From: Methylocystis rosea
Lineage (GTDB): Bacteria > Pseudomonadota > Alphaproteobacteria > Rhizobiales > Beijerinckiaceae
Assembly (NCBI RefSeq): GCF_003855495.1
Contig: NZ_CP034087.1
Coordinates: 186,001-250,000, forward strand
Direction of reading: 5' to 3'
DNA length: 64,000 nucleotides
The notes beneath the pieces were generated by a model. That model was not told where the DNA came from. It worked only from the letters and a program-made list of their open reading frames with translations, and searched no databases. Below are positions 7,962-60,559 of this stretch, piece by piece (within the stretch, counting starts at the first letter, position 1; every line of letters starts with the position of its first letter). The position numbers and the translations under genes are program-made.

Positions 7962-8365
7962 GGCGCCGCCTTTAAGACGAGCCGATTTTCGAGCGTACCG
8001 GTCTCGCCCTGGACTTTCGCCGCCAGCGAAACTCTCCACTTCCCCTCCATCGACAGATCGAGCTTGAAGCGATAGACGCCAAGTTCCGCGCTCGGCAGAG
8101 GCTCGATGCTGGCCGTCATCATCTCCATGCCGTCGGGCGCCATGTCGAGCCGCGTCGCGAAAATCACCGCGCCAGGAACAAGCTTGCCGTCTGGCTTGTG
8201 AATAAGGCGCACCGAGACGATTGCGTCACCCTTCTTGATGCCCTTTTCGATAAGCGTGAATTCGTAATCCTTGATGTCGGCTTGCGCCATTGGGACGCCG
8301 CCAAGCATTAAGGCGAGAGCAGTCAGGGCGACGACAGGGACGTGAGGCGAGTTCACAAACGGCAT
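7958..8365 (-). CDS. FixH/YtkA-like secreted protein of the copper operon
   Basis: A 135-residue product with a signal peptide (about residues 1-28, ending PMAQA) and one immunoglobulin-like beta domain of the FixH/YtkA type. Recognisable parts are the GDAIVSVRLIHKPDGKLVPG strand pair, the Met-rich RLDMAPDGMEMM and the closing MEGKWRVSLAAKVQGETG. Proteins like this are often found next to Cus-type genes and are thought to bind or deliver metal in the periplasm; this role is unproven. The stop overlaps the start of the cusC-like gene. The start at 8365 is chosen for the signal peptide; no strong ribosome site is seen. Confidence 0.8.
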   Translation of the reverse strand: MPFVNSPHVPVVALTALALMLGGVPMAQADIKDYEFTLIEKGIKKGDAIVSVRLIHKPDGKLVPGAVIFATRLDMAPDGMEMMTASIEPLPSAELGVYRFKLDLSMEGKWRVSLAAKVQGETGTLENRLVLKAAP

Positions 8366-29722: not shown

Positions 29723-32700
29723 GTGCCGCATTTGCCGACAGAGAGCTTGAGAACCCCGCGTCAAGACGATCTCGGTCTCTTGCGAATTGCAAACGAGCTT
29801 GGGTTCTCGATCAGCGTCCTGCCCAACAGCGCGATCTTCGCTATGCGGCATGGGCGGAACATGATCAACCGGTCGCTCGCCTCGCCCATCGCCGGCGGAA
29901 TGACGCGTCTTTATCTGCGCCTCGGCGGCCTCGAACCGATGCTTTTGCCCGTCATCGGCCCCGACGCTCGATGCCGCATCGGCATGGCGTCCGATCGTTT
30001 TGCTTGGGAGGGCAAGACGTCCGCCATACGCCACCGGGTCACACTTTGGTTGCATCCCAGCGTGAACTTATGGCTCTGGCGGGTCGAACTCATCAACGGG
30101 CGCCGCCGCGGGACGCTGCCTTGCGATGTCGTGTTCATTCAGGATCTCGGTCTTGGCGAAGAGAGCTTCTTAATGAGTAACGAAGCCTACGCATGCCAAT
30201 ATCTCGATCACTATGTCGCTCGGCACCCGCGTATGCATCATATCCTGATGAGTCGGCAAAACCTATCGCAAAATGGCATGCATCCTTGGGTCGCGCATGG
30301 CTGTGTTGAAGGCGCCACCGGCTTCGCAACCGATTATCGGCAGCTTATGGGCCCCGCTTACCGCGATGCCTATCGACTCGACTATCCTTTTGGGACGAGC
30401 CTGCCGTCGTATCGACTACAGCATGAGACAGCGTGCGCGGCTTTGCAGTCTCAAGCAATAACGCTGCAGCCGGATACGACCGGGGCTTGGACGTTTTTCG
30501 GTCTTTACACATCCGATCATCCGGCAGCGTCGACAGATGCCGACCTTGCGCTGATAGACGAAGTCGAGCGCGCCAGCAAAGAATGGGCGCCGTGTACGAT
30601 TCCCCTGTCTACCCCGGAACGGAGCCTTCTTCAGGAAGCGCCCTCGGTCGTCGCCGATTCCTTGGACGAGACGACGATAGAGGCGCGCTATCCGCGGCGC
30701 ACGCACATCGAGCGGGCGGGTGGTCAGATTCTGTCTTTTTTCACGCCAGGAGAAATCTACAGCCGTCATATTGTTTTGCGCGACAAAGAACGCCTTATTT
30801 TGCGCCGGCACGGAGCATTGTTGCGCAGCGGAAAAGAGATGTTGCCCAACGAGGCTACGTTGTGCGTGACCTGCTGGATGCATGGCGTGTTCGGCGCGCA
30901 GCTCACTGTCGGCAATACGTCCTTTCACCAGCTCTTTTCTGTCTCTCGCGACCCTTACAATATCACTCGTGGCAGCGGGCTGCGCATGCTCATGGACACA
31001 GGCGATGGATGGCGGTTGCTGACGGTTCCGTCGGTGTTCGAGATAGGCCTCAACGACTGCCGCTGGGTCTATAAGGTTGGCGACAGAACCATTATAATCT
31101 CAGCGATTGTTTCTGGAGACGAACCCGTCGTGCAGTGGCGCGTCACCGTTGAAGGCGAACGATGCCGCTTCCTCGTTTTTGGCCATCTCACCCTCGGTGA
31201 GAACGAATTCGCCCATGCCGGCTGGGTAGAGATCGATGCTCCACAAAAGCGATTGACCTATCGGCCGGATCTCGATGGTCAGTGGGGCCAACGTTATCCG
31301 CAGGCCGTCTATCACCTAGTGACAAGCACGCCTGAGAGCGTCGAGATCGTGGGCGCCGATGAGCTGCTTTATGCTGACGGCAAGCGCCGCGCTGGTGGTT
31401 TCGCCTCACTCCGGACATGCCTGACGAACGAATTCGTCTTCGCTGTGGTCGGTTCAATGAGCGATGCGAAGCGAGCGGAGGTGCTGGCGGCCAAATACAC
31501 TCACGGCGTCGACGATGCGGCGATGCTAGCACATTCGGTTCGCTATTGGCGCAATGTCACCCGCGGCATACGCATCAAGAGCTCGAGCGCCGACGCTGAT
31601 GCCGAGGCTATCGACACGATGTTCCCGTGGCTGGCGCACAATGCGATTGTGCATCTCACGGTTCCACACGGCCTTGAACAATATATGGGCGCCGCTTGGG
31701 GAACCCGCGACGTGTGCCAAGGCCCCATGGAATTGCTTCTGTCGCTGGAGCACGACGAGGCAGCCAAGGCCATTCTTCGTATCATTTTTGCCCAGCAGTA
31801 CGAGAAACGAGGCGACTGGCCCCAATGGTTCATGCTGGAGCCTTACTCCGCCGTGCAGGACAGGCAGGCGCATGGCGACGTCATCATCTGGCCGCTGAAG
31901 GCCTTGTGCGACTACTTGGAAGCGACCGGCGATTTCGGTTTCCTCGACGAACCCGTCGCCTGGCGGCGCGAGGATAACCTGGAGAAGACAGCCCATGCCA
32001 ATCTGATCGCGACCCACGTCGACACGCTGATCGCGACCGTGCGCCAGCGTTTCATCGCCGGCACATGTCTAATCCGCTATGGCAGCGGGGACTGGAACGA
32101 TTCTCTTCAGCCGGTCAACCCGTCAGCCCGTGACTGGATGGTGAGCAGCTGGACCGTGGCGCTTCTGTATCAGCAACTTCGTCGGTACTCCGAAATTCTG
32201 CGTCGTTCTGGGCGTTTCGACAAGGCTAAAGAGCAGGACTCCCTTGCCTCCGCGATGCGCGAGGACTTCAATCATTTTCTCATTCGTGATGGCGCAGTGG
32301 CCGGCTACGGCGTGTTCAGGCCCGAGGGCGGCTTGCCCGAACTGCTGCTTCACCCAAGCGACAACCAGACTGGCGTTTCCTATTCCCTGCTTCCCATGAC
32401 GCAGGCCATCGTCGGGGGTCTTTTCACGCCGGAACAGGCGGGCCACCACCTCGGCCTCATCCAAAAGCATCTTGCGTTTTCCGACGGCGTGCGCCTGATG
32501 GACAAGCCAATCGCTTATCATGGCGGGCCGGAAAGGATTTTCCAACGAGCCGAATCGGCCGCGTTCTTTGGCCGCGAAATCGGGCTCATGTACGTGCACT
32601 CGCATCTGCGCCATGCAGAAGCCATGGCCGCGCTCGGCGAATCCCAAGCGCTTTGGGACGCCCTTATCGTCGTCAATCCCATTGCCGTCACGGATCGGCT

Positions 32701-33013
32701 CGCCCATGCATCGTTGCGGCAGCGCAACGCCTACTTCAGCAGCAGCGATGCCGCATTCCGGGATCGGTATCAGTCCAGCGCAGAATGGGAACGGGTCAAA
32801 ACCGGCGCCATCGCGGTCGATGGTGGTTGGCGTATTTATTCAAGCGGACCTGGTCTCTACATAAGTATGCTCATCCGACATGTATTCGGTGTCCACCGGC
32901 AGTTCGGCAAGCGGATCGTCGAGCCGTGCTTGCTGGTATCGCAGAAGGGCTTGAGGGCGAACTGGCCTTCAACAATTTCTCTGGATCACCCGCCGACAGT
33001 TCTGCCTCGCTGA
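29723..33013 (+). CDS. GH94 phosphorylase of the 1,2-beta-oligoglucan type, C-terminus frameshifted
   Basis: A 1096-residue GH94 protein, close in length to 1,2-beta-oligoglucan phosphorylases (about 1100), which split beta-1,2-glucans with phosphate to give glucose 1-phosphate. Seen are the barrel motifs WGTRDVCQGPMELLLS, EKRGDWPQWFMLEPY, YGSGDWNDSLQP (general acid in GDWND, about residue 793) and LMDKPIAYHGGPERIFQRAE. Translation starts at GTG 29723, and no signal peptide is seen. A base seems missing near 32926: the true tail VLAGIAEGLEGELAFNNFSG lies in the next frame, so the last 30 residues read here are wrong. Activity may be kept since only the terminal sheet is affected. Confidence 0.85.
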   Translation: MPHLPTESLRTPRQDDLGLLRIANELGFSISVLPNSAIFAMRHGRNMINRSLASPIAGGMTRLYLRLGGLEPMLLPVIGPDARCRIGMASDRFAWEGKTSAIRHRVTLWLHPSVNLWLWRVELINGRRRGTLPCDVVFIQDLGLGEESFLMSNEAYACQYLDHYVARHPRMHHILMSRQNLSQNGMHPWVAHGCVEGATGFATDYRQLMGPAYRDAYRLDYPFGTSLPSYRLQHETACAALQSQAITLQPDTTGAWTFFGLYTSDHPAASTDADLALIDEVERASKEWAPCTIPLSTPERSLLQEAPSVVADSLDETTIEARYPRRTHIERAGGQILSFFTPGEIYSRHIVLRDKERLILRRHGALLRSGKEMLPNEATLCVTCWMHGVFGAQLTVGNTSFHQLFSVSRDPYNITRGSGLRMLMDTGDGWRLLTVPSVFEIGLNDCRWVYKVGDRTIIISAIVSGDEPVVQWRVTVEGERCRFLVFGHLTLGENEFAHAGWVEIDAPQKRLTYRPDLDGQWGQRYPQAVYHLVTSTPESVEIVGADELLYADGKRRAGGFASLRTCLTNEFVFAVVGSMSDAKRAEVLAAKYTHGVDDAAMLAHSVRYWRNVTRGIRIKSSSADADAEAIDTMFPWLAHNAIVHLTVPHGLEQYMGAAWGTRDVCQGPMELLLSLEHDEAAKAILRIIFAQQYEKRGDWPQWFMLEPYSAVQDRQAHGDVIIWPLKALCDYLEATGDFGFLDEPVAWRREDNLEKTAHANLIATHVDTLIATVRQRFIAGTCLIRYGSGDWNDSLQPVNPSARDWMVSSWTVALLYQQLRRYSEILRRSGRFDKAKEQDSLASAMREDFNHFLIRDGAVAGYGVFRPEGGLPELLLHPSDNQTGVSYSLLPMTQAIVGGLFTPEQAGHHLGLIQKHLAFSDGVRLMDKPIAYHGGPERIFQRAESAAFFGREIGLMYVHSHLRHAEAMAALGESQALWDALIVVNPIAVTDRLAHASLRQRNAYFSSSDAAFRDRYQSSAEWERVKTGAIAVDGGWRIYSSGPGLYISMLIRHVFGVHRQFGKRIVEPCLLVSQKGLRANWPSTISLDHPPTVLPR

Positions 33014-37501: not shown

Positions 37502-38908
37502 CTATCGACCGCTAGGCGTTTGCGCGCCGCCCCACAAATCCTTCACTTGTTCGAAATGGAGAGAAGGATCGTAATTCGTCGCATTGAGGTTCAAATTGCG
37601 AGTCGACAGGCGTCCGATCGCCGCGAGCACGGCGTAAGAGGCGATGACGCGGTCGCGTTGCGCGAGGATGAGGCCGATGCGCGCATTGAGCAGCTCCTGC
37701 TGCGCGTTAAGAATGTCGAGCGTCGTCCGTTGGCCCGCCTTCGCTTCCTCGCGCACGCCATAGAGCGCGCGCTCGGCCGCGGCGATCTGCGTTTGCGCCG
37801 ACGCGATCTGAGTCTTCGCCGCTTGCAGAGCGCCCCAGTTGGCGCGCACCAGCGCCAGAACCTCGGCGCGCGCCACATCGGCGTCGAGCCGGCGTTGTCC
37901 GGCGGTTTCCTTGGCCTGCCGCACGCGCGAGGAAGTGACGCCGCCTTCGTAAAGGGGCACATTCAAACGACCGCCGACCCTCGCGCCGATGTTGCGGTTG
38001 CCGATTCCAGTGAAATCCGTCTGCGTGAAAATATCGCCGACGATGGACAATCTCGGCAAGAATTCGGCCTCCAGCGCCTTGATGTCGAGATCGGCGGCGT
38101 CGGCGTCATGCAGCGCGGCGAGGATGAAGGGATGTTCGCCGAGTGCGATGCGCTCCGCCTCTTCGCGCGTTTTCGGCAAACGCCTGTCGATGGGCGCGCC
38201 GGGCGCGAGCTTCGTCGGCCCGACGCCGATTGTCCGGCGATAGACGCCGATGCTCGCGTCGAGCGTCGCGCGCGCGGCGCTCGCGAGCGATTTGCCGCCG
38301 GCGAGCCGCGCTTCGGCCTGGGATATGTCGGTGAGCGTGATCTGTCCGGCGAGATAGCGTTCGTGCGTCTGGCGCAATTGTTCGGCTAGAACGGCGACAT
38401 TGTTTTCCTGCAATTTCAGCACGGCCGTGTCGCGCAACACATTCATATAGGCGGAAACGGCGTCGAAGAGCACGCGCTGCTCGGTAAGGCGCAGCCGCTC
38501 ACGGCCGGCGAAGACGCCTGACTCCGCCGCGCGCGTCTGGTTTTGCGTCCTGAAGCCGTCGAAGATCGGCTGCTCAACCGAAAGAATCGCGCTGCGCGGT
38601 GCGCTGGCGCCCGATTGAATGCTCTTCGAATGGTCTGTCTTGGTGGGATCGTCTAAATAGACGTCGCGTTGCTGCGTAATGAGGCGATTTCTCTGCGCGC
38701 CGATATAGGCGTCGGCCGAAACGCGCGGCCGCAGGCCGGCTTGCGCCTGCGGCACGGTTTCGTCGATCGCCCGCAGCTGCGCCCGGCTGGCGTTGAGGAC
38801 CGGACTAGCCCCGTAAGCGCGGCGCATCGCGCCCGTCAGCGTTTCGGCGCAGGACGCAGAGTTCGCAAGGATGCAGATGAAAACTAAGGTGCTGCCGCGC
38901 GCGCTCAC
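37502..38908 (-). CDS. TolC-family outer-membrane efflux channel (czcC position)
   Basis: A 468-residue TolC-type protein with a signal peptide (about 1-21) and two TolC repeats: AMRRAYGASPVLNASRAQLR and GEHPFILAALHDADAADLDI mark their starts. The beta-strand segments (SAILSVEQPIFDGFRTQNQT, ARVGGRLNVPLYEGGVTSSR) are present. It starts with GTG, 3 bases after the czcA stop, so the order is czcB-czcA-channel. It closely resembles TolC itself rather than typical CzcC. It is the only full-length outer-membrane factor in the window and could also serve the Cus pump. Confidence 0.93.
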   Translation of the reverse strand: MSARGSTLVFICILANSASCAETLTGAMRRAYGASPVLNASRAQLRAIDETVPQAQAGLRPRVSADAYIGAQRNRLITQQRDVYLDDPTKTDHSKSIQSGASAPRSAILSVEQPIFDGFRTQNQTRAAESGVFAGRERLRLTEQRVLFDAVSAYMNVLRDTAVLKLQENNVAVLAEQLRQTHERYLAGQITLTDISQAEARLAGGKSLASAARATLDASIGVYRRTIGVGPTKLAPGAPIDRRLPKTREEAERIALGEHPFILAALHDADAADLDIKALEAEFLPRLSIVGDIFTQTDFTGIGNRNIGARVGGRLNVPLYEGGVTSSRVRQAKETAGQRRLDADVARAEVLALVRANWGALQAAKTQIASAQTQIAAAERALYGVREEAKAGQRTTLDILNAQQELLNARIGLILAQRDRVIASYAVLAAIGRLSTRNLNLNATNYDPSLHFEQVKDLWGGAQTPSGR

Positions 38909-46517: not shown

Positions 46518-49500
46518 GTGGATAACCGCTGCGGCTCCCGAAATTTTTTCTCATTTTCGACGAAGTCTGTGATGTTTCCGCCAACTTCATTGGTCTTGGC
46601 CGTATTCTTCTGGGCTTCGCTCGGCGGGCCTACTTTTGCAGGAAGCGATCTCTCGGCGGCGTGCCGCGCCGCCGAGATCGAGACGCGGATTGCCAAGTGC
46701 ACCGAAATTATTGCGCATGGAAAGCGGGAGACAAAGCGAAATCAGCTCTTCGCCTATATCAGTCGGGCGGCCGCTTATCGAGCTAAAGGCGATTTCGACC
46801 GTGCCCTCGCCGATCTCGACAAGGCGCTGCGGCTCAGCCCGAAATCGGCTCCCGCCCTTTTGGAACGTGGATCGATTTATCATGATCGAGGCGATTTTGA
46901 TCGCGCCATCGCCGATTACAGCGCGGCGATCTCAGCGCAGCCCAAATCCGCAACGGCCTTCTTTGGCCGGGCCGAATCTTACCGTGCGAAGAACAACCTT
47001 GACAGCGCCATTGCCGATTACGACGTCGTGCTGCAGCTCGATAAAAACCTGGCGATGGCTCACAGCGGCCGCGCGAACGCCTATCGATACAAGGGTGACC
47101 TAGACAGGGCGCTAGCCGACTTTGACGCAGCGCTGACGCTCGATCCAAAATCCGCCCCCACGCACGTCTTGCGCGGCGCCATCTATCATTCCAAGGGCAA
47201 TCTCGACCGAGCTATTGCGGACTTCGACAAAGCCATTGAGCTCGACCCGCGCTATACGAGCGCCTTCGTAGAGCGGGCAAACGCCTTTCGGGGCAAGCAC
47301 GAGCTCGAGCGCGCGAAACAAGACCTCGAAGCCGCGTTAAAACTCAACCCTCGACTCGGCCCAGCAAAAGTCGCGCTCGACGAGCTGAATAGACTTCTAG
47401 CCGCAGGCGGCGCCCATCCAGGCGATGCAACTCCCCCGGCTCCCGCTCCCGCAGCGCCTCCAATCGCAAGACGTCTGATCCTGGTTGCCGCAGGCCTCGC
47501 TCTGATGGCCTTCGTCGTCGGGGGCTTTTGGTTTAAAGGCGCGAGGGGCAACCGTGTAGAGTCAGCGAGCAAGGAACCCTCTCACGCCGGGCGGCGCACT
47601 TTCAAGGTCACAGCTTTGGATTGCGCCGAGGAGGTGGCGGTTCTGCGCCGGGAGGTAGGTCCGGTGGTCGGGGGAGAGGAACATCTCGCGTTCGATGTGT
47701 TGAACGGCCGCATGATTGTGCTGGACACCGCCCTGCCAATCTCGCCCGACACGATCATCAACGCCGTTCGCCGCACAGGCATGACCGCCGACGAGTGGCG
47801 TCTCGAAGGCCGGGAGCCCTCCGACGCCAGCGACCGGCGCCGCCGTCAGCAAGTCTGGTTCACGAGCCTCAGTGGATTGTTCGTAGCAGCCGGATTCGTC
47901 ATTCACATATGGCTCGCCGGCGGTTTTGGCGAAGCGCTGAGGCTTCTGGGGGGCCATGACGGAAAGTCCATGCCATTGCCAGAAGCGGCTGCCTACGCGC
48001 TGGCGGTCATCTTCGGCGTGCGGTTCGTTATTGTCAAAGCGTGGTATGCGGCGCTTGGCTTGCGACCTGATATGAACCTCTTGATGGTGATCGCCGTGGC
48101 CGGCGCTGTCGCCATCGGCGAATGGTTTGAAGCGGCGACCGTGGCGTTCTTGTTCGCACTCTCGCTGACATTGGAAAGCTGGAGCGTCGCGCGGGCGCGC
48201 CACGCCATTTCCGCCCTTCTCGATCTTGCGCCGCCCACGGTCCGGCTCTTGCGTTCAGATGGATCGGAAGCGGACGCGCCAGCGGCGGAAATTCGGCCGG
48301 GCGAACGCTTCGTCGTTCGTGCCGGCGAACGTATTGCGCTCGACGGCCGTGTAGTGATGGGCGTCAGCGCCGTAAATCAGGCGCCGATCACTGGTGAAAG
48401 CGTGCCTGTGGAGAAGGAACCGGGCGCCGAAGTCTTTGCCGGCACGATAAATGGTGACGGCGCGCTAACGGTGGAAGCGACACGCACGGCCGAGGACACC
48501 ATGCTCGCCCGCATTATCCGCATGGTGGAAGAGGCGCATGCTCGGCGCGCTCCCTCGGAGCAATGGGTGGAACAATTTGCCCGCGTTTACACGCCGTCGG
48601 TCATGGCGTTCGCGCTCGTCGTTTTTCTCGGGCCGCCGCTGGCGTTCGGGGGAGCATGGGATGATTGGTTCTATCGCGCGCTTGTCCTGCTGGTGATCGC
48701 CTGTCCCTGCGCCTTAGTGATCTCCACGCCCGTGTCCATTGTCGCGGCGCTCGCTTCGTCGGCTCGTGCCGGCGTGCTGGTCAAGGGCGGGGCCTATCTC
48801 GAGCTCCCCGCCCGGCTGAAAGCGATAGCCATGGACAAGACAGGAACGATCACGCGCGGCGAGCCGGAGGTCGTCCGTGTGGTGCCGTTCGGAACGCATA
48901 CGGACGCTGAATTGTTGGCGCGTGCGGCGGCGCTCGAGGCCCGTTCCACGCACCCGCTGGCGCGCGCCATTTTGCACAAGGCGCAAGAGCGGATGGACGT
49001 CATCGCGCCAGCGACGGAAGTCCAGGCGCTCAAAGGAAAGGGCCTGACAGGTATGTTTGACGGCGAGCCGTTCTGGCTCGGCTCCCATCGTTATGTCGTC
49101 GAGCGCGGCCAGGATACGCCCCAGTCTGCAGAACTGGCGGAAGCATTGGAGGGGGATGGCAACACCGTGATCGTTGTCGGCAATGCGAGGCATGTCTGCG
49201 GACTCATCGCCGTGGCCGACACAATTCGGCCCGAGGCGGGCGAAATGGTCCGGCAGCTGCATGCCGCCGGCATCTTGCATATCGTCATGCTAACGGGAGA
49301 CAACCGGGTCACCGCCGAAGCTATTGCGCGTGAAGTTGGCGTCGACGAGGTATATGCGGAATTGTTGCCAGAGGACAAAGTTAAGAAGATTGACGAACTG
49401 GTAGGACGTTATGGCGTCGTCGCAATGGTTGGCGATGGCGTAAATGATGCGCCGGCGCTAGCACGCGCCAGTCTCGGCATCGCCATGGGCGCGATTGGCT

Positions 49501-49781
49501 CCGACGCCGCGATCGAAACAGCCGACGTCGCGCTGATGACTGACGACATCTCGAAGTTGCCCTGGCTGGTTCGTCACGCGAAGCGGACACTTGCTATTAT
49601 CCGGCAGAACATTGCCTTCTCGCTCGGCGTCAAGGCGCTCTTCATGGCGCTCACTTTCGCCGGCTTGGCCACCCTTTGGGGCGCCATCGCCGCCGACGTC
49701 GGCGCGTCGCTAGTGGTCATCGCCAACGCGCTGCGGCTCTTGCGGCCGGCTCGTGTCCGTGACGCAGGCTCACGTCCGTGA
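46518..49781 (+). CDS. TPR-P1B-ATPase fusion, Zn/Cd/Pb exporter type
   Basis: A 1087-residue fusion starting at GTG 46518 (AGGA 7 bases upstream). Order: signal anchor (about 22-42); a TPR domain of six repeats (about 73-285) led by two Cys in the pattern AACRAAEIETRIAKCTEII; a Pro/Ala linker; an extra membrane helix (320-339); an HMA-like domain without CxxC (C369 in TALDCAEEV); then a complete P1B pump with CPC at 729-731, phosphorylated Asp773 (DKTGT), STHPLAR, GDGVND, Lys1039 and Asp1060. The last two match ZntA K693 and D714, so Zn/Cd/Pb is the likely cargo. The N-terminal extra helix would put the TPRs in the periplasm. I know of no such pump. Confidence 0.93.
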   Translation: MDNRCGSRNFFSFSTKSVMFPPTSLVLAVFFWASLGGPTFAGSDLSAACRAAEIETRIAKCTEIIAHGKRETKRNQLFAYISRAAAYRAKGDFDRALADLDKALRLSPKSAPALLERGSIYHDRGDFDRAIADYSAAISAQPKSATAFFGRAESYRAKNNLDSAIADYDVVLQLDKNLAMAHSGRANAYRYKGDLDRALADFDAALTLDPKSAPTHVLRGAIYHSKGNLDRAIADFDKAIELDPRYTSAFVERANAFRGKHELERAKQDLEAALKLNPRLGPAKVALDELNRLLAAGGAHPGDATPPAPAPAAPPIARRLILVAAGLALMAFVVGGFWFKGARGNRVESASKEPSHAGRRTFKVTALDCAEEVAVLRREVGPVVGGEEHLAFDVLNGRMIVLDTALPISPDTIINAVRRTGMTADEWRLEGREPSDASDRRRRQQVWFTSLSGLFVAAGFVIHIWLAGGFGEALRLLGGHDGKSMPLPEAAAYALAVIFGVRFVIVKAWYAALGLRPDMNLLMVIAVAGAVAIGEWFEAATVAFLFALSLTLESWSVARARHAISALLDLAPPTVRLLRSDGSEADAPAAEIRPGERFVVRAGERIALDGRVVMGVSAVNQAPITGESVPVEKEPGAEVFAGTINGDGALTVEATRTAEDTMLARIIRMVEEAHARRAPSEQWVEQFARVYTPSVMAFALVVFLGPPLAFGGAWDDWFYRALVLLVIACPCALVISTPVSIVAALASSARAGVLVKGGAYLELPARLKAIAMDKTGTITRGEPEVVRVVPFGTHTDAELLARAAALEARSTHPLARAILHKAQERMDVIAPATEVQALKGKGLTGMFDGEPFWLGSHRYVVERGQDTPQSAELAEALEGDGNTVIVVGNARHVCGLIAVADTIRPEAGEMVRQLHAAGILHIVMLTGDNRVTAEAIAREVGVDEVYAELLPEDKVKKIDELVGRYGVVAMVGDGVNDAPALARASLGIAMGAIGSDAAIETADVALMTDDISKLPWLVRHAKRTLAIIRQNIAFSLGVKALFMALTFAGLATLWGAIAADVGASLVVIANALRLLRPARVRDAGSRP

Positions 49782-51367: not shown

Positions 51368-54300
51368 ATGCTGCGGCTCTCAACCTCTCTTTCGTTCGCT
51401 ATGCGTACGTCATTCGCCATCCTGGTTTATCTATTGGTTTCCGCGATCAGCGTCGGCTTCTTTAGCGAAACAGCTTTTGCCAGAGCCGACGACTGGACAG
51501 AGTGTTTCGGCGTCAATCTTGACGCGCGGATCATCGGCTGCACGCGAATCATCGCTCGCGCGAGCAGGGAAAGCAAACGGCATAAGGTTGAGGCATACAT
51601 CAATCGCGGCGCAGCCTATCGCGCTAAGGGCAACTTTGATCGCGCCCTCGCTGATCTCGACCGCGCCCTGCAACTCGATCCAAAGGCGGTGGCTACGCTG
51701 ACGGAGCGTGCGTCCATTTATCACGCGACAGGCGACTTAAAGCGGTCTATTTCGGAATACGACAAAGCGCTATCGATCGACAAAAATTTGGCGATCGCCT
51801 TTCTCGGTCGCGCCGAGGTATATCGTGAGAAGGGCGATCTGCAAAAGGCGCGCCTCGATTTCGACGAAGCTGTTCGACTCGATCCAAACTCGGCCTTAGC
51901 ACGCCTTGAACGGGGCGATCTTTATCGGGCGCAGGGGGATTTCGATCCGGCGATCGCCGACTACAACGAGGCCATAAAGATTGACCCACGCTCAGCAAGC
52001 GCTCTCCTGGGTCGGGGGAAGACCTATCGTGGCAAGGATGATCTTGATCACGCCCGGCAGGATTTCGATTCCGCGCTGAAGGTCGACCCAAACCTTACCG
52101 ACGCGAAAGATGCGCTCGACGAAATAAGCCAACTCATCGCAAAACGAATTGCGCCCCCCGTCGCCGCGCCCATTTCGACCGCTCCTCCGCCGGTCGCTCG
52201 ACGGCTTGGGCCAAGTCCGTCGTTGCTCGCGTTTCTGGCAGCGACGACGTTGATTGGATTGATTGCGATCGCGATTATGCACTTCCGGCAGGTCAGAAAG
52301 GCTCGTCGTTTCACGGCTGCTCAGCCCACCAGCGCACGCGACGAATATCTTGCGACAATCAGTCGGCTCCAACCTGAGGAAGTCTACGCAAAGACGGAAT
52401 CCCATCTTGAAGGCCTATCCCAGGCGGCGGCCGACGAGCGCCTACAGAAATTTGGTCCCAATCTCGTCGCTCGCGAAGCCAAACCAACTGTCGTCCAAGA
52501 ATTGTGGAACCGCGCTAAGAATCCGCTCAACGCGTTGCTGCTGACGCTGGCGACCGTTTCCTATTTTTTGGGGGACATTCGCGCCGCCATCGTCATCGCC
52601 TCGATGGTGGTGCTTGCGATCGCGACCGCCTTTATCCAGGAACACAGATCGAATGAAGCGGCGGCGCAGCTGCGGGCGATGGTTCATACCACCGCGAGCG
52701 TTAGACGAGCTCCGGGCGAAAGGGACAACCCCTTCTCGGAAATCCCGATCGAGAAACTCGTGCCCGGCGATATTGTGCGGTTGTCCGCTGGCGACATCAT
52801 TCCCGGCGATCTGCGTCTCCTCGAATCCAAGGATCTTTTCGTCAACCAGGCGGCGCTTACCGGCGAGGCAATGCCGGCCGAAAAGCATGCGCAAGCGAGC
52901 AAGGAGGATCACGACGATCCGTTCGATTTGTTGAACCTGTGCTTTATGGGCGCCAATGTCGTATCGGGTTTTGCGGTAGGCGTAATTCTTCGAACAGGTC
53001 CAAGAACGTTTTTTGGCCAGCTCGCTCATCAGATCGCTGGGCAACGCGTTCCGACCGCATTCGATCAAGGCGTCAACAGATTCACCTGGTTGATGATTTG
53101 CTTTATTCTGGTGATGGTTCCAACCGTCTTTCTCATAAATGGCCTGACAAAACACGATTGGCTGGAAGCGCTTCTCTTCGCGGTGGCGGTCGCCGTCGGC
53201 CTTACGCCGGAGATGCTGCCCATGATCGTGACGGTGAATCTCGCCAAAGGCGCTATCGCCATGTCGCACAAAAAGGTGATCGTGAAGCGCCTCAACGCCA
53301 TCCAGAATTTCGGCGCTATGGATGTTCTATGCACCGACAAAACCGGGACGTTGACCCAGGACCGCATTATATTGAAGCGTCATCTTGATATTTACGGGAA
53401 TGACTCCGACCGCGTTCTGGAATTCGCTTATCTCAACAGCCATTTCCAATCCGGGCTGAAAAACCTTCTCGACATTGCCGTGCTTGAGCATGCGGAAATT
53501 GAGGAACGTCTGCGTCCCCAACATAGTTTTACGAAGATCGATGAGATCCCATTCGATTTTGAGCGCCGTCGGCTTTCGGTCGTCGTGCAGCGTGACGATG
53601 GTCAGCACCTCTTGATCTGCAAGGGCGCAGTCGAGGAAATTTTCGCCGCCGCAACGCGCTTTGAGACCGCCAACGCCTGCGGCGCGCTCGACCCATCGCA
53701 TCTCGAGGCCGCAAAACGCGAAACAGCCGAACTCAACGCCGACGGATTCCGCGTCGTCGCCGTCGCCTACAAGGAGATGCCGCCAACGCAAATTGTCTAC
53801 ACAGTCGCCGACGAGAATGATCTGACGCTACTCGGCTATATTGCCTTTCTCGACCCGCCGAAGGAGAGCGCGGCGGAAGCGATCGCGGATCTCGCCAGGG
53901 CGGGCGTTTCCGTCAAGATTCTCACCGGTGACAATGAGATTATCACCCGCAAGATATGCAAGGACGTCGGCCTCAAAGTCGATCGCATCGTGCTCGGGTC
54001 GGAGGTCGAACTCATGAGCGACGAAGCGTTATCGAAGGTCGCCAAAACGACGATCGTCTTCGCGAAAATGTCGCCGCCGCAGAAAGCCAAAGTGATCGAA
54101 GCCCTGCACCGCGGCGGACATGTCGTCGGCTATCTTGGCGACGGCATCAACGACGGGCCAGCGTTGAAAACCGCCGATGTCGGCATTTCCGTTGATACTG
54201 CCGTCGACATCGCCAAGGAATCGGCGGACATCATCCTGCTCGAAAAAAATCTCCTTGTCCTTGACGAAGGAGTCATGGAGGGCCGCCGAACCTTTGCGAA

Positions 54301-54907
54301 TATCACGAAATACATCAAGATGGGCGCGAGCTCCAATTTCGGAAACATGTTTAGCGTGCTTGGAGCGAGCATATTCCTGCCGTTTCTTCCGATGGCGCCT
54401 ATCCAGGTTCTGACCAACAATCTGCTCTATGACTTTTCGCAAACGACAATACCGACCGACAACGTCGACGAGGAATATCTGGCGTCGCCGCGAAAATGGG
54501 ACATCAGCAACATTTTCAAATTCATGCTGTTTATCGGCCCGATCAGCTCCATATTCGACTATGTCACCTACGGAGTAATGATTTTTGTTTTCAATGCCTG
54601 GAATAATCCGCCACTGTTCCAAACCGGATGGTTTGTCGAGTCCCTTCTGACGCAAACGCTGATCATCCACATCATCAGGACCGCACGAATCCCATTCGTG
54701 CAGAGCCGCGCGAGCGCGGCGCTCATCACGACGACTATCGTCATCTGTGCTGTCGGGATTCTCCTGCCTTTTACCTGGGTAGGATCGGTGCTCGGCTTCA
54801 CGCCGCTGCCCGCGCTCTACTGGCCGCTGGTCGCAGCCACGCTGCTGACATACGCGGTGCTCACCCATCTTGTGAAAGTTTGGTTCATAGGCAGATGGGG
54901 GATTTGA
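51368..54907 (+). CDS. TPR-MgtA fusion, P3B magnesium-type ATPase with periplasmic TPR domain
   Basis: A 1179-residue fusion from ATG 51368 (AGGA 8 bases upstream; ATG 51218 is an alternative). Order: signal anchor (FAILVYLLVSAISVGFF), a Cys pair in CFGVNLDARIIGCTRII, five TPRs (from AYINRGAAYRAKGNFDRALA to FDSALKVDPN), Pro-rich linker, extra helix SLLAFLAATTLIGLIAIAIM followed by basic RKARR, then a complete MgtA-type pump: LTGEAMPAEK, VGLTPEMLPMIVT, phosphorylated Asp657 (CTDKTGTLTQD), GDGINDGPAL. MgtA brings Mg2+ inward using ATP. The TPR part is a close cousin of that on the P1B pump. This fusion is unknown to me. Confidence 0.93.
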   Translation: MLRLSTSLSFAMRTSFAILVYLLVSAISVGFFSETAFARADDWTECFGVNLDARIIGCTRIIARASRESKRHKVEAYINRGAAYRAKGNFDRALADLDRALQLDPKAVATLTERASIYHATGDLKRSISEYDKALSIDKNLAIAFLGRAEVYREKGDLQKARLDFDEAVRLDPNSALARLERGDLYRAQGDFDPAIADYNEAIKIDPRSASALLGRGKTYRGKDDLDHARQDFDSALKVDPNLTDAKDALDEISQLIAKRIAPPVAAPISTAPPPVARRLGPSPSLLAFLAATTLIGLIAIAIMHFRQVRKARRFTAAQPTSARDEYLATISRLQPEEVYAKTESHLEGLSQAAADERLQKFGPNLVAREAKPTVVQELWNRAKNPLNALLLTLATVSYFLGDIRAAIVIASMVVLAIATAFIQEHRSNEAAAQLRAMVHTTASVRRAPGERDNPFSEIPIEKLVPGDIVRLSAGDIIPGDLRLLESKDLFVNQAALTGEAMPAEKHAQASKEDHDDPFDLLNLCFMGANVVSGFAVGVILRTGPRTFFGQLAHQIAGQRVPTAFDQGVNRFTWLMICFILVMVPTVFLINGLTKHDWLEALLFAVAVAVGLTPEMLPMIVTVNLAKGAIAMSHKKVIVKRLNAIQNFGAMDVLCTDKTGTLTQDRIILKRHLDIYGNDSDRVLEFAYLNSHFQSGLKNLLDIAVLEHAEIEERLRPQHSFTKIDEIPFDFERRRLSVVVQRDDGQHLLICKGAVEEIFAAATRFETANACGALDPSHLEAAKRETAELNADGFRVVAVAYKEMPPTQIVYTVADENDLTLLGYIAFLDPPKESAAEAIADLARAGVSVKILTGDNEIITRKICKDVGLKVDRIVLGSEVELMSDEALSKVAKTTIVFAKMSPPQKAKVIEALHRGGHVVGYLGDGINDGPALKTADVGISVDTAVDIAKESADIILLEKNLLVLDEGVMEGRRTFANITKYIKMGASSNFGNMFSVLGASIFLPFLPMAPIQVLTNNLLYDFSQTTIPTDNVDEEYLASPRKWDISNIFKFMLFIGPISSIFDYVTYGVMIFVFNAWNNPPLFQTGWFVESLLTQTLIIHIIRTARIPFVQSRASAALITTTIVICAVGILLPFTWVGSVLGFTPLPALYWPLVAATLLTYAVLTHLVKVWFIGRWGI

Positions 54908-55350: not shown

Positions 55351-55574
55351 CGATCTAAGACCGAGTCTTGGAGTGCGTGACTCGCGCGGCGCTCGAAAGA
55401 TGGCCCACGAGCGCGCCGGCTTATATACGGCTTGAACGTCGCCGCTTCCACTGCACCAATAGTTTTGTTCTGTTGAACGTTCCGCAACATAGCTCCAATC
55501 TCTCCAGCCCGGCGATGGTGATTAGCCACAGCAGCGGCAGGTTTCCGGCGCAACAATTGGTGAATCCTCAAATT

Positions 55575-58500
55575 ATGAGTTTCATGGACGCTAATGGCCT
55601 TACCTCGCAGGATGCGGAACGACTTCTGTCGCAATTTGGCAGAAATGAAGTCGTCGAGCGCGAGAAGCCCTTCCCGCTCAAGATCGCCGCCGAGCTATGG
55701 CAGCCCGTTCCATGGATGCTTGAAGCCGCGATCATTTTGCAGATCGCCATTGGCGAGCGGCTGGAGGCCGCAGTCATCGCGGCGCTTCTGCTCTTTAACG
55801 TCGCGCTGAGCTATTTTCAGCAAGACAAAGCGCAGGCCGCGCTCTCCATTTTGAAGTCAAGGCTTTCCGTCCGGGCGACGGTGAAGCGCGACGGCGTCTG
55901 GAAGGAAATTCCCGCGCCGGAGCTTGTGCCGGGAGACATTGTGAAACTCGAGCTCGGGTCCCTCGTTCCTGCTGACGCGCGCATTATTGAAGGATCGGTC
56001 CTCCTCGATCAATCCATGCTAACTGGCGAGTCGGCGCCCGTAGAAGTCGGCGCCGGCGCGGTGGCCTACTCTGGCGCCATTGGGCGGCGAGGAGAAGCAG
56101 TCGCCGAGGTCGTCGCCACCGGCGCCCGGTCCTACTATGGCAAGACTGCGGAGCTCGTGAGAGTCGCTGGCGCGAAAAGCGCGCAACAGGAGGCCGTTCT
56201 CGGCGTCGTGCGCAATCTCGCGGTGTTCAACGGCGCCGTTACGGTGTTCCTGATCGCTTACGGACATAGTCTTTCGATGTCCCCGGGGCGTCTCGTCGCC
56301 CTGGCGCTGACGGCGGTGCTCGCGTCCATTCCCGTAGCCCTTCCCGCGACCTTCACACTCGCAGCCGCGCTTGGCGCGCAGGCGCTCGCCCGGAAAGGCG
56401 TGCTGCTCACAAGGCTCGACGCAGTGCATGAGGCGGCGATGGTCGACGTGGTCTGCGCGGACAAGACCGGCACGCTGACGTCCAACCAGCTCGGCGTCGC
56501 GGCAGTGAAATCGCTGTCGGAGGCGTTCGAGGAAGCGGACGTTCTTCGCCTCGCGGCGCTCGCAAGTTCCGCCGCCGGTTTCGATCCCGTAGACGCAGCC
56601 ATCCGCATCGCGGCCCCACAAAATGGCGTAAACAGCTTGCCGCCGCTGCAGGTCCGCAGCTTTACGCCATTCGATCCGGCGACGAAGCTCGCCGAGGCCA
56701 TCGTCGCGGATGAAGCAGGCAGGGAAAGCCGCATCGTTAAAGGGGCGCCCATTGCGGTCGGCCGACTGTCGCCTTTCGACTCCCGGGCCGAACAGGACAT
56801 CGACGTCCTGAGTCGTTCCGCCGGCCGCGTCATCGCCGTGGCCCTCGGTCCGCGTGGGGCTGAGAAGCTCGTGGGGCTGATTGCTCTGAGCGACCCGCCG
56901 CGGCCGGAATCGAAACCACTCATCGCCGCATTGCGGGCGGAGGGCGTAAAGACCGTCATGGTGACGGGCGACGCGGCGGCGACGGCTTCGTCGGTTGGCC
57001 ACGCCGTCGGTCTCACGGGCCCCGTATGTCCTGCGGCGAAAATTTCCGAGAATGCGAATCCCGAGGATTACGCCATTTACGCAAGCGTGTTTCCAGAAGA
57101 CAAATTCAAGTTGGTGCAAGCGTTCCAGCACCGGGGGCACATTGTCGGCATGTGCGGGGACGGCGCCAATGACGCACCAGCTCTGCGCCAAGCGCAGATG
57201 GGCGTCGCCGTCTCCACGGCGACGGACGTCGCGAAATCCGCCGCCAGCATTGTCCTCACCGAGCCCGGTCTCAAGGGAATCGTCGCGGCGATCGAGGAGG
57301 GGCGCGCCGCCTTTCAACGCATTCTGACCTATACATTGAATGCGCTCGTCAAGAAATTCCTGCTCGTCCCCTTTCTTGGCATCGGCCTGCTGGCGACGGG
57401 CCACGCGATTGTGACGCCGATGCAAATGGCGCTGCTGCTCATCACCGGCGACTTTCTGACCATGGCCATCGCCACGGACCGGGCGACGCCTTCCTCGCAA
57501 CCCGACGCCTGGCGGCTCGGCCCGATCACCGGCGCGGCAGGATCGTTTGCCTTTGCGGGGCTGCTGTTTCTTTCGGCGATCATGCTCGTCGGCGAGCGGG
57601 TGCTCGGCTTGAGCATCGACGAACTGCGCACCGTCGCCTTTCTTTCCCTCGTTTTTTTCGGTCAGGCGACCGTTTACATTCTGCGTGAGCGCCAGCGTCT
57701 TTGGAGCTCGGCCCCCTCCGGATGGCTGTTAGCCTCTTCGTCGTTCAATATCGCAATCGCCATTGTGCTGGCGCTCGCTGGATGGCTGATGGCGCCGCTG
57801 CCCGCCTGGATCGTCGGAGAATTGTTTCTCGCGACGCTCCTTTTCGCTTTCTTTCTCGATCTGCTGAAATCATTCGTTTTTGCAAGCGTCGGCTTCTTAG
57901 CCGGCGCCGAAGCCGAGGCGAAGCGCAAGCTTGCTCCCTGGATACTTCCCTCCGGCGCCACCGTCCTGATCGTGCTCGTCGCTGCAGCGGCGGGGCTCTG
58001 GCCTTTGCCATTTGGACCGCCGCAACACGTCGCGGAAAGCACGCGGCCTGCTCGCGCTGCGCAATTCGCGACCCTCCAAGGCAAAGTCGAGGCGGCGCGC
58101 GAGCGATTCGTCGTCGCGCAAAGCGAGGGAACGATCGGCGCGCTGAGGTGCCACGCGGGCGAAAGAGTTGAGGAAGGACAACTCTGCGCCATGATCGTTA
58201 GTGATCCCTATTGGCGCGCGTTTAAAAGGCTCGAAACTGCGGAGCGCAATCGCAACAATGAGGAACGGCTACTGACTTCACTGGGTTCTGGACGCGGCGG
58301 ACGTTATGCGCGCTCAACTGCGCTGCGGCGCAGGCTGCTGCTGGCCCGGGCGCACGAGCGGCAGGACGAAATTGAAAGGCTGCACGCAGCCTTGCGGGAA
58401 GAGGAGAAACGCGCGAAGCCGATCGAAATCCGCGCGCCGTTCGACGTAATCGTTATTGCAAGCTATGCATCGACCGGAAAAAGGATTGCGCCATTCGCGC

Positions 58501-58841
58501 CGCTGTTTCTCTTCACTCGGGAATCACCCGACGTCGCGGTTCAACTTGAAGCGCCGCAAGACGAGCTGAAGCGTTTCCGCGTGGGGGATGCGGCGAAAAT
58601 CGTCTCCGAAGCCGCTCCCGGCCGCGTTTTGAACGGCAAGATCGCGGAAATTATTGGCCGCGAAGCAGCCGGAGACGGCGCCTCGCTCTCGGGGCGAGTG
58701 ATCGTCGAAGCGCCAAAGAGCGACGGTAGCTTCAGCGTCGGCTCGACCGTTACGGCGAAGATCGAGATCGTGCGCGAAGACGCGCCCGCCGACGCCGCGA
58801 CGCCCCTTTTGCCGCGCTCAGGATCTAGAGGCCCGCAGTGA
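55575..58841 (+). CDS. P3A-type proton ATPase fused to a C-terminal HlyD-like adaptor domain
   Basis: About 1088 residues from ATG 55575; ATG 55515 or TTG 55368 would lengthen a non-conserved lead. The first 780 residues are a plasma-membrane H+-ATPase: MLTGESAPVE, SIPVALPATFTLAAALGAQA, phosphorylated Asp296 (CADKTGTLTSNQ), MVTGDAAATA, GDGANDAPALRQAQ. After the usual ten helices comes an 11th (GATVLIVLVAAAAGLWPLPF). A membrane-fusion domain follows: lipoyl half GALRCHAGERVEEGQLCAMI, helical hairpin, second half IEIRAPFDVIVIASYASTGK, then a beta barrel (PQDELKRFRVGDAAKIV). The added helix would put the adaptor in the periplasm. This combination is new to me. Confidence 0.93.
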   Translation: MSFMDANGLTSQDAERLLSQFGRNEVVEREKPFPLKIAAELWQPVPWMLEAAIILQIAIGERLEAAVIAALLLFNVALSYFQQDKAQAALSILKSRLSVRATVKRDGVWKEIPAPELVPGDIVKLELGSLVPADARIIEGSVLLDQSMLTGESAPVEVGAGAVAYSGAIGRRGEAVAEVVATGARSYYGKTAELVRVAGAKSAQQEAVLGVVRNLAVFNGAVTVFLIAYGHSLSMSPGRLVALALTAVLASIPVALPATFTLAAALGAQALARKGVLLTRLDAVHEAAMVDVVCADKTGTLTSNQLGVAAVKSLSEAFEEADVLRLAALASSAAGFDPVDAAIRIAAPQNGVNSLPPLQVRSFTPFDPATKLAEAIVADEAGRESRIVKGAPIAVGRLSPFDSRAEQDIDVLSRSAGRVIAVALGPRGAEKLVGLIALSDPPRPESKPLIAALRAEGVKTVMVTGDAAATASSVGHAVGLTGPVCPAAKISENANPEDYAIYASVFPEDKFKLVQAFQHRGHIVGMCGDGANDAPALRQAQMGVAVSTATDVAKSAASIVLTEPGLKGIVAAIEEGRAAFQRILTYTLNALVKKFLLVPFLGIGLLATGHAIVTPMQMALLLITGDFLTMAIATDRATPSSQPDAWRLGPITGAAGSFAFAGLLFLSAIMLVGERVLGLSIDELRTVAFLSLVFFGQATVYILRERQRLWSSAPSGWLLASSSFNIAIAIVLALAGWLMAPLPAWIVGELFLATLLFAFFLDLLKSFVFASVGFLAGAEAEAKRKLAPWILPSGATVLIVLVAAAAGLWPLPFGPPQHVAESTRPARAAQFATLQGKVEAARERFVVAQSEGTIGALRCHAGERVEEGQLCAMIVSDPYWRAFKRLETAERNRNNEERLLTSLGSGRGGRYARSTALRRRLLLARAHERQDEIERLHAALREEEKRAKPIEIRAPFDVIVIASYASTGKRIAPFAPLFLFTRESPDVAVQLEAPQDELKRFRVGDAAKIVSEAAPGRVLNGKIAEIIGREAAGDGASLSGRVIVEAPKSDGSFSVGSTVTAKIEIVREDAPADAATPLLPRSGSRGPQ

Positions 58842-58917
58842 AGAGCGAAAACGCTCACGCCAACAGCGATCGCCCAGCAAACGCTCTCGGCTGCCGTCTG
58901 CGCGACATGACCGCAGG

Positions 58918-59398
58918 TTGTACGGCCGGAACTGGAAATGGCGTTGGCGCGCAGCGATCGAATGGAAGCGGAACTGGTGGACGGCGCGAGCCGGCCTCTT
59001 CCAGCTTTCGGACGTACCCAACAGCGAGAAAATCGAATCCGTGTTGCTGCGCGAGTTTATGGGCGTCGCCGAATTCGAGGCGCGCTACGATCTCTTCGGG
59101 CGTCGTCAAATTTCTCGCCTTTGGCGACAATGGCTATCTCAATAAGGTCGACAATGTCGTCAATTTCGCTTTTCTGACGGGGAGTTTTCCGCCTGACATC
59201 ACGAACAACGCGCGGCGCAAGAGGGCCGTGAAGGTCGGCGGCGGCATCAATGTTCAACAGCAGCTCATGCCGAGTCTGGGCTTTTTCCTGCGCGCCAGCA
59301 TGTGCGACGGGCGTTACGAGACGGTCGATTACACCGAATTCGACCGCCGGCCGAGGCCCAAGGCCGCTACTACGCGCAAATCGGGGAGCCCGCCTTAA
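58918..59398 (+). pseudogene. OprB-like carbohydrate porin relic
   Basis: Two frames join near 59100: AIEWKRNWWTARAGLFQLSD, VPNSEKIESVLLREFMGVAE and FEARYDLFGRR, then GVVKFLAFGDNGYLNKVDNV, GGGINVQQQLMPSLGFFLRA and DGRYETVDYTEFDR. These are consecutive beta strands of OprB-family outer-membrane porins. The N-terminal half and the last strands are missing and there is a frameshift. It lies directly after the ATPase-adaptor fusion. Confidence 0.78.
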
Positions 59399-59452: not shown

Positions 59453-60559
59453 TCAGCTTTCAGCCGCACGGCGAGAAAGAGCCTTATCGACCAGCGACGC
59501 CACGAAGTGTTGGATGAGGTTGTAAAAGATAATCGGCAGCATGACGCCGGGGTGATCGGATAGCGTCATAGACGCGAGCACGAGGCCCGCCCCATTGTTG
59601 TTCATGCCAAGGCCGAACATCAGCGACGCCGTGCCGGCGCGATCGGCCCCGAAGGCGCGCGACACCAGATAGCCGGCCCCGAACATCACGAAACACAACA
59701 GAATCACGACGATCAGCATAATCACGACGAAATCGGGATCGGTCTGAGACACAACGCCCGGCAGGCTGATCGAGGCGTTGGAATAATTGAGCAGCGCCAG
59801 AACGCCAAAATTGCACAGTTTCAGATAAGGCGAAATCAGCGCCGCGCGTTTTTCTCCCAAAATCCAACGCGTCAGCATGCCGAACAAGGAGGGCGAGATG
59901 ACCCATGCCGCCAGGAAGCCTCCAGCGCCGTTCGCCGCGAGTTCATGTAAATCTTCGGAATAGTCGCCCGTCGTTACAAAGCCGACAGAGTGAAGCACGA
60001 TCGGCGTGAGAACCGGGCTGCAGAGCGTGGTGAGCAGGATCAGACCCAGGCTCACTGCAAGATTGCCGTTGGCGTTTTGCGCCCAGGCGGTCGACGCTCC
60101 AGCGATCGGCATTGCCGCAACCAAGGCCAGTCCGGTAAGGATTTGCTGAGTCTCGTCCGAATTGTGCCAAAGCTTCATCGTGATGCTAACGCCGATGACG
60201 AAGGCGAGGGGCACGAAGAGATTTCCTAGCGCTCCGCCCAGAAGAAGGGACGGATTGCGCAGCAGACTGGCCAGTTCCCTTGTCCTCACACCCAAGCCCG
60301 CGTTAAACAACAAAAACGCAAGCATCGCGGGTGGCAACGAGAAGGTGATCTTTGTTCGCCATATATCAATGCTTCCTACCTCTATGCTACGTACGTGAAC
60401 TCCTAGACTTGGGTAAATCGCAGCTATAATGTATGATGTAATAATTACCCATATAAAATATTTATGAATTACATGTTGAGCCGTTGAAATTATGTGAGTT
60501 GAGCGGAATTGCTGTTTGTACACGAGAGCCGACCCCGGTTGTCTCAACAAGTTTCTCAC
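59453..60559 (-). CDS. BASS-family (bile acid:sodium symporter-like) transporter
   Basis: A 368-residue membrane protein with 8-10 hydrophobic helices and the BASS layout: PPAMLAFLLFNAGLGVRTRE, ALVAAMPIAGASTAWAQNAN and FGLGMNNNGAGLVLAS, the last two resembling the crossed-helix cation sites of the family. Substrate unknown; it may be an organic anion. The start is a GTG at 60559 without clear ribosome site. The DNA for the first 60 residues (about 60350-60500) is much richer in A and T than the rest, which suggests a patchwork origin. Confidence 0.82.
   Translation of the reverse strand: MRNLLRQPGSALVYKQQFRSTHIISTAQHVIHKYFIWVIITSYIIAAIYPSLGVHVRSIEVGSIDIWRTKITFSLPPAMLAFLLFNAGLGVRTRELASLLRNPSLLLGGALGNLFVPLAFVIGVSITMKLWHNSDETQQILTGLALVAAMPIAGASTAWAQNANGNLAVSLGLILLTTLCSPVLTPIVLHSVGFVTTGDYSEDLHELAANGAGGFLAAWVISPSLFGMLTRWILGEKRAALISPYLKLCNFGVLALLNYSNASISLPGVVSQTDPDFVVIMLIVVILLCFVMFGAGYLVSRAFGADRAGTASLMFGLGMNNNGAGLVLASMTLSDHPGVMLPIIFYNLIQHFVASLVDKALSRRAAES

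Follow-up and report, generated by a model that had tools for sequence, protein, structure and literature searches.

What is the adaptor of an exporter doing at the end of an ion pump? Adaptors of the HlyD/MacA family are known from exporters of drugs and proteins, and P-type ATPases as self-contained pumps; a gene in a 64,000-nucleotide stretch of the Methylocystis rosea genome (the window) joins the two. It runs from 55575 to 58841 on the + strand and encodes a complete fusion of a P3A-type ATPase, one transmembrane helix and a MacA-type adaptor module. The window lies on a 348-kb contig (C2) of a genome of 4.2 Mb in three contigs. We propose that the module is a tether, which would cluster or sort pumps in the envelope, rather than the arm of an exporter, a reading to which we give, from sequence comparison, a probability of about 0.4.

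Pump and adaptor in one frame

The enclosing open reading frame (ORF) spans 55368..58841 (+), and the likely starts of the protein are the ATG at 55575 (1088 aa) and an alternative GTG at 55560 (1093 aa, the database protein P0001). Pfam places Cation_ATPase_N, E1-E2_ATPase (residues 98-274, 2.5e-41) and Hydrolase (290-540) in the pump half, followed without change of frame by HlyD_D23 (836-1026, 5.8e-12) and HlyD_3 (952-1044, 8.6e-05), both above cut-off. The initial annotation had read a proton P3A ATPase fused to an HlyD-like adaptor and proposed a profile search for the combination, and P-type ATPase and HlyD-type domains are indeed matched in one protein. The same fusion occurs elsewhere in the database, in four proteins of nearly full length (1082-1099 aa) and in three that are shorter, with 49-62% identity in the adaptor half. 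Since independent relatives bear the identical architecture, a sequencing error is unlikely and an origin as artefact or frameshift is ruled out; by these comparisons the pump-adaptor fusion is confirmed as real. Literature searches found no publication describing a P-type ATPase-adaptor fusion: the main text of a 2026 adaptor review (PMC13328181) gave no word beginning with “P-type” or “fused” in a word search, and “P-type” did not occur within the 300,000 of 747,799 characters searched of a 2021 review (PMC8277102).

The pump body (residues 1-771, 55575..57887, + strand like the features below) is Pma1/AHA2-like by Pfam, NCBIfam, solved-sequence and Foldseek matches. It holds the phosphorylation motif DKTGT (residues 296-300, 56460..56474), the hinge motif GDGAND (residues 528-533, 57156..57173) and a TGE motif at residue 150, and its Asp626 (57450..57452) aligns with the aspartate of transmembrane helix 6 (TM6) of AHA2 and Pma1, presumably the proton-binding residue. 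Among proteins of solved structure, AHA2 (5ksd, 5.8e-107) and fungal Pma1 (~1e-97) match best in sequence, with calcium pumps far behind (~1e-65). The top NCBIfam family, ATPase-IIIA_H (TIGR01647, plasma-membrane proton-efflux), scores 567.7 bits and misses its cut-off of 615.5; we call the pump P3A-type, not an equivalog of TIGR01647, and we infer proton transport. The P3A class assigned initially is supported by the matches, the P-type motifs and the aligned aspartate, and the ten pump helices mentioned there are consistent with the P3A fold matches. AHA2, Pma1 and TIGR01647 proton ATPases are thus the nearest known systems in sequence, fold, phosphorylation motif and TM6 aspartate, but the window protein falls under the family cut-off and carries an extra helix and the module. 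Among the matches listed, its closest plasmid-borne relative, from Methylocella tundrae (57.5% identity over 68% of the window protein), stops at the pump end.

The adaptor module (residues 830-1065, 58062..58769) comprises barrel, split lipoyl domain and hairpin, as assigned by Pfam, NCBIfam, a structure model and fold matches. NCBIfam RND_mfp covers residues 827-1067 (1.4e-18, 67 bits, below its cut-off of 94.9). In the full-length AlphaFold model, of modest confidence (predicted local distance difference test, pLDDT, 66.7), the added helix leads into strands, a pair of long helices (877-902, 912-945) and further strands; the isolated module reaches a pLDDT of 86.4 and has MacA as top match by Foldseek and VIA. 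Its profile resembles solved MacA-type adaptors (4dk0, 2e-46; 9qgy, 1.5e-44; 3fpp, 2.3e-43), with ZneB and CusB among the solved relatives. An adaptor fold is predicted from these models, and the lipoyl halves, hairpin and barrel noted initially agree with it. The membrane-proximal domain of MacA was not found in the window module, where the match stops near residue 1067 of 1088, and is retained in some relatives (L057, L070).

A module on many hosts

The fusion had been regarded as a single oddity. This view is ruled out by further fusions in the same genome and in related ones, and the gene turns out to be one case of a widespread module on many hosts. Three further P-type ATPases of the genome, of the calcium-pump type (L009, L010 and L011, 1201-1251 aa), also have such a module at the C-terminus; they show 59-74% identity among themselves and, at full length, 28-29% with the window protein, and L011 shows the domains Cation_ATPase_C and HlyD_D23. 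Twenty-two database proteins match the P2A-kind module at length, 14 of them without an organism name. The organism-named relatives are all Methylocystis, namely, for the P3A kind, P0005 and P0008 and, for the P2A kind, eight of the 22 proteins. The P2A-type fusions of Methylocystis share architecture and module family with the window protein but belong to another pump class and are known by database names only (“HAD-IC family P-type ATPase”, “magnesium-transporting ATPase (P-type)/multidrug resistance efflux pump”); another database name for module-bearing parts is “RND family efflux transporter MFP subunit”. A genome scan added loci from Methylocystis rosea, Methylocystis sp. L43, sp. H62, Methylocystis silviterrae and a Methylocystaceae metagenome-assembled genome.

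We searched 199 genomes of the family, using the P3A module, the P2A module and a 27-row module alignment as queries, and then fetched and read the loci; in large genome searches the best 8-12 candidates were scored per genome. P3A hosts are the window protein, L057 and L070, the latter two passing the P3A cut-off (1068 and 964 bits). P2A-type hosts are L009, L010, L011, L058, L060, L061, L063, L066, L068, L072, L078 and L199, with Cation_ATPase_C in L058, L061, L063, L066, L068, L072, L078 and L199, and L060 typed as P2A by NCBIfam. P1B heavy-metal ATPases carry the module in L059, L062, L064, L069 and L077; L062 also contains hemerythrin, as does L203, which has the same layout. A P1B-hemerythrin-module ORF of 898 aa in Methylocapsa polymorpha has its upstream ATPase part in a different frame, and the plasmid-borne Methylocella tundrae relatives of the window pump and of the L062 pump are unfused.

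Hosts other than P-type ATPases were found as well. At eight loci (L081, L082, L084, L089, L143, L202, L205 and L206) the module is fused directly to quinol-oxidase subunit IV (CyoD, domain COX4_pro), beside CyoB in cyo operons. L088 (2233-4743) encodes an alternate F1F0 ATPase alpha subunit (TIGR03324, 877.7 bits, cut-off 750.5) followed by one helix and the module, flanked by an a-subunit gene on one side and a gamma-subunit gene on the other. The remaining hosts are AHSA1-domain proteins (L085, L138, L139) and small four-helix membrane proteins (L083, L204).

Predicted placement of the module in the periplasm

The added helix of the window protein (residues 790-808, 57942..57998), the hydrophobic segment that the initial annotation had counted as an eleventh helix, has its positive charges on the N-terminal side, with three K/R before it and none after. 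Among 18 fused proteins with a definable host-domain end, host and module are separated by a single helix in each of the 12 non-CyoD hosts (seven P-type pumps, the ATPase alpha subunit, three AHSA1 proteins and one four-helix protein) and by none in the six CyoD hosts. K/R residues before the helix equal or exceed those after it in 10 of the 12, the order being reversed in L010 and L064. We take the C-terminus of CyoD to be periplasmic, as in E. coli bo3, and, by family knowledge, that of 11 of the 12 non-CyoD hosts, the four-helix protein excepted, to be cytoplasmic. That an extra helix appears with cytoplasmic host C-termini and not with CyoD implies selection for keeping the module periplasmic. 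This parity rule is hardly a chance product and would place the modules in the periplasm; for the window protein, the added helix, its 3-to-0 charge difference and the rule over 18 fusions point to a periplasmic C-terminus, as the initial annotation required.

Origin from MacA-type adaptors

The first lipoyl half contains a Cys-x11-Cys pair, Cys859 to Cys871 in the window protein (58149..58187), which is common to the ATPase-fused modules (65/65 rows, 61 distinct tails) and also found in the CyoD, AHSA1, alpha and four-helix rows. The complete list of invariant columns in the 27-row module alignment is G36, C43, V49, G52, C55 and G207, and a disulfide between the two cysteines is predicted. 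Five stand-alone adaptors have the pair (L086, L087, L127, L128, L129), each adjoining a MacB-like gene; the neighbour of L086 carries MacB_PCD, ABC_tran and FtsX, and the other four neighbours are 67-76% identical to it. The pair is absent from the two resistance-nodulation-division (RND) adaptors of the window, from L079 and L080, from the RND-adaptor frames L197 and L198, and from the 18 outside-family loci read in the order search. RND adaptors such as AcrA, MexA and CusB share the general adaptor fold with the window module, and most are separate polypeptides. As a separate observation, L197 and L198 (genomes G076 and G040) encode an RND pump, named from sequence, and an adaptor as one long frame.

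Since the pair is common to the fused modules and to MacA-like adaptors beside MacB-like genes, we consider the module to descend from MacA. On a tree of 52 module rows, the 40 Cys-pair rows cluster together (support 88/99); within this cluster the 35 fused rows make up a clade of their own (83/93), next to the solo MacA-like Cys-pair rows (96/88). By these alignments the fused modules have one origin from MacA-type adaptors with the Cys pair. MacA of MacAB-TolC is accordingly the closest known system in fold, domain order and profile, with solo Cys-pair relatives next to MacB-like genes, but the window module sits on the C-terminus of a P-type ATPase, has lost the RLS motif, lacks the membrane-proximal domain and has no MacB.

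Host types are intermixed on the tree, where P3A hosts occupy three positions and CyoD hosts two. The modules that genome G198 encodes on a P3A pump, a P2A-type pump, a four-helix protein and CyoD are close neighbours on it. Such mixing would be expected if the module were a passenger, that is, if read-through from a pump gene into a copied macA gene had produced fusions that are tolerated and reshuffled and have little function of their own. Frequent loss of the RLS motif and the lack of a barrel in some ATPase-fused modules (L071, L073-L075) fit this idea, as does an interrupted P3A fusion copy in genome G017 (L018/L090), where a transposase-like ORF, named by sequence, stands directly before the adaptor half. 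However, the Cys pair and the fold have been maintained across long divergence, the MacA helix is missing exactly where CyoD hosts require its absence, many pumps within one guild have captured the module, and the P2A-kind module is matched at length by 22 database proteins. We consider an idle passenger rather unlikely.

The pair itself could be taken to indicate a periplasmic regulatory or ion-handling domain, tuning the attached pump by CusB/ZneB-like ion binding or by redox sensing. Metal-efflux adaptors bind metal, many hosts are cation pumps, and the pair is invariant in the aligned sets; but it was inherited from MacA-like adaptors beside MacB and not gained with metal pumps, and CyoD and AHSA1 hosts move no metal. 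This makes a regulatory role the most improbable of the alternatives that we weighed.

Docking to TolC

The alpha-hairpin of the window module (residues 877-945, 58203..58409) is without the RLS motif. In the sections of PMC3391258 that treat it, this motif (R-x3-L-x6-S at the hairpin tip) is the TolC-binding element of MacA, AcrA and MexA, single changes in it alter activity, and HlyD has the version RLT. We confined a pattern search to the hairpin region, allowing S or T at the last place; a few proteins, such as the window protein and P0001, are counted twice. No match was found in the window hairpin. The motif occurs in 2 of the 65 ATPase-fused rows (L009 and P0010; 61 distinct tails) and is lost in 63; among the 43 adaptors that lack the Cys pair, 29 have it (Fisher p 1.5e-13, the rows being related). 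Of the 54 fused loci analysed, 3 (L009, L067, L081) contain an outer-membrane channel gene, as judged by BLAST with three outer-membrane efflux protein (OEP) queries over stretches of mostly a few kb, which leaves room for unlinked channels. The OEP genes of the window (7071-8039 and 37505-38908) belong to RND operons.

These results bear on the envelope-spanning exporter suggested by the initial annotation. A tripartite exporter driven by a P-type ATPase would have six fused modules forming a funnel on an outer-membrane channel, so that ions exit in one step. The complete adaptor fold with its hairpin is in favour of this arrangement, and MacA, the ancestor, works with MacB and TolC. Moreover, Pma1, the best fold match of the pump, is hexameric (7vh5/7vh6), which equals the copy number of MacA in MacAB-TolC (5nik/5nil, 12 chains in two entries). 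The RLS motif is unaltered in the P2A fusion L009, which has an outer-membrane efflux gene ~5 kb away. Since the broken P3A-fusion relatives P0008 and L090 keep an RLT-like tip, the HlyD form as quoted from PMC3391258, TolC docking is also possible for the P3A-fusion lineage.

On the other side stand the loss of the motif in nearly all ATPase-fused rows, the window protein included, the missing membrane-proximal domain, the scarcity of channel neighbours, and hosts such as CyoD, the ATPase alpha subunit and AHSA1 proteins, which bear the same module and have nothing to export. Together they lower the exporter role, which we regard as unlikely for the module at large, and single members such as L009 may dock. 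Given the loss of RLS in the ATPase-fused rows, we find a tripartite exporter less likely than a clustering or sorting tail.

Distribution among methanotrophs

As a marker of the particulate methane monooxygenase (pMMO) we used PF02461 (AMO/pMMO subunit), for which 20 of the 199 family genomes are positive. Of these 20, 17 have a verified ATPase fusion with the Cys pair, compared with 0 of the 179 negative genomes (Fisher 7e-22, uncorrected for kinship, the zero holding within the limits of the search). The large frames read in negative genomes encode an RND-adaptor or a plain adaptor without the pair (L079, L080, L197, L198), and many further hits, in frames below 700 aa, were left unread. 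In genus g40 a fusion is present in 7/10 pMMO-positive genomes (six ATPase fusions, and in G798 a CyoD fusion as far as read) vs 0/5 negative ones.

Within the genus of the window, the corresponding figures are 28/31 and 4/8 (Fisher p 0.02), where a fusion was counted as a module hit in a frame of at least 1000 aa, with G151 and G177 read separately. For the 32 genomes with a fusion, 12 frames of 10 genomes and the fusions of eight genomes were read, and 14 genomes were counted by frame length and module hit; all 12 frames encode an ATPase with the Cys pair. A strict association with pMMO was considered and had to be softened, as fusions occur in four of the eight pMMO-negative genomes of the genus. 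A search of 297 genomes of the order at E<=1e-50 yielded no frame of at least 1000 aa outside the genome of the window, a threshold that weaker fused modules could escape. In a phylum sample, one genome outside the genus was above the family cut-off (G572, with three copies); our guess is that it is probably an ammonia oxidiser.

Cells of Methylocystis are described in part of PMC12566213 as having intracytoplasmic membranes parallel to the cytoplasmic membrane. For another methanotroph, a passage of PMC9445010 suggests that pMMO arrays keep respiratory enzymes out of these membranes. According to PMC5874634, methane oxidation in Methylocella silvestris and Methyloferula depends solely on the soluble enzyme.

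A proposed periplasmic tether

We favour the tether over the exporter since it suits all hosts of the module, which are of five unrelated kinds, and the exporter does not. The P3A-type pump, predicted to move protons, would carry a MacA-derived module into the periplasm by means of its extra helix. There the modules may oligomerise as MacA does or bind a shared periplasmic or envelope partner, and would hold pumps together or against that partner, resulting in clustering or sorting. Methanotrophs with two inner membranes, the cytoplasmic and the pMMO-bearing intracytoplasmic one, might in this way keep ion pumps, terminal oxidase and F-type ATPase in one of them. In its fullest form, our proposal is that in alphaproteobacterial methanotrophs a MacA adaptor was turned into a transferable periplasmic docking tail on many primary ion-moving machines (P1B, P2A and P3A ATPases, quinol oxidase via CyoD and an alternate F-type ATPase via its alpha subunit), which sorts energy-converting pumps between cytoplasmic and intracytoplasmic membranes; so broad a claim we consider doubtful.

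Several observations weigh against the tether and its extension to two membranes. Three of the 20 pMMO-positive family genomes (G105, G126, G172) and 3 of the 31 in the genus are without a fusion, and four pMMO-negative carriers of the genus (G809, G813, G816, G820) have, on reading, an ATPase with the Cys pair; these are drafts of 60-210 contigs, and assembly gaps may explain the missing pmo genes. As a marker of intracytoplasmic membranes, pMMO is no more than a proxy, and, contrary to PMC12566213, an excerpt of PMC11237726 says that type II methanotrophs lack such membranes. The AHSA1 hosts are not pumps, and the ATPase-fused modules without a barrel, which end after the second lipoyl half (L071, L073, L074 and L075), suggest weak constraint. 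The motif survives in L009 and P0010, an RLT-like tip is found in the ATPase fragments P0008, L090 and L137, the last a half gene, and the CyoD fusion L081 keeps RLS (one of eight CyoD rows). Moreover, the five solo adaptors with the pair, all beside MacB, divide into three that keep RLS and two that have lost it too, so that the loss is no proof of a new role. Finally, the deep tree nodes are below 95, which gives only moderate support for any order of events.

Other features of the window and neighbouring loci

Another P-type ATPase of the window has extra domains of a different kind: at 51368-54907 (ORF from 51041), an MgtA-type ATPase is preceded by an N-terminal signal-like helix, about five tetratricopeptide repeats (TPRs) and a further helix. 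Two genes upstream, at 46518-49781, lies a P-type ATPase, of the heavy-metal type by reading, with a similar N-terminal TPR region. Directly 3′ of the fusion gene, the ORF 58838-59398 has no Pfam family, and from its translation we have the impression that its later part resembles a porin remnant. SBF-type transporters that are 56% identical are encoded near two different ATPase-adaptor fusions of the genome, at 59456-60559 (− strand) of the window and at 4646-5743 (− strand) of L009. At 29723-33013, amid many metal- and drug-efflux genes, the window encodes a SOGP-type glycoside phosphorylase of 1096 aa.

Significance

With one adaptor lineage attached to several unrelated families of pumps within a single ecological guild, neither the picture of the adaptor as a part of exporters nor that of the P-type ATPase as a self-contained pump holds. 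The finding also offers a handle on how bacteria with internal membranes allot their pumps, since one can remove or relocate the module and track the pump. The docking tail, if true, would be a new way of organising a bacterial membrane.

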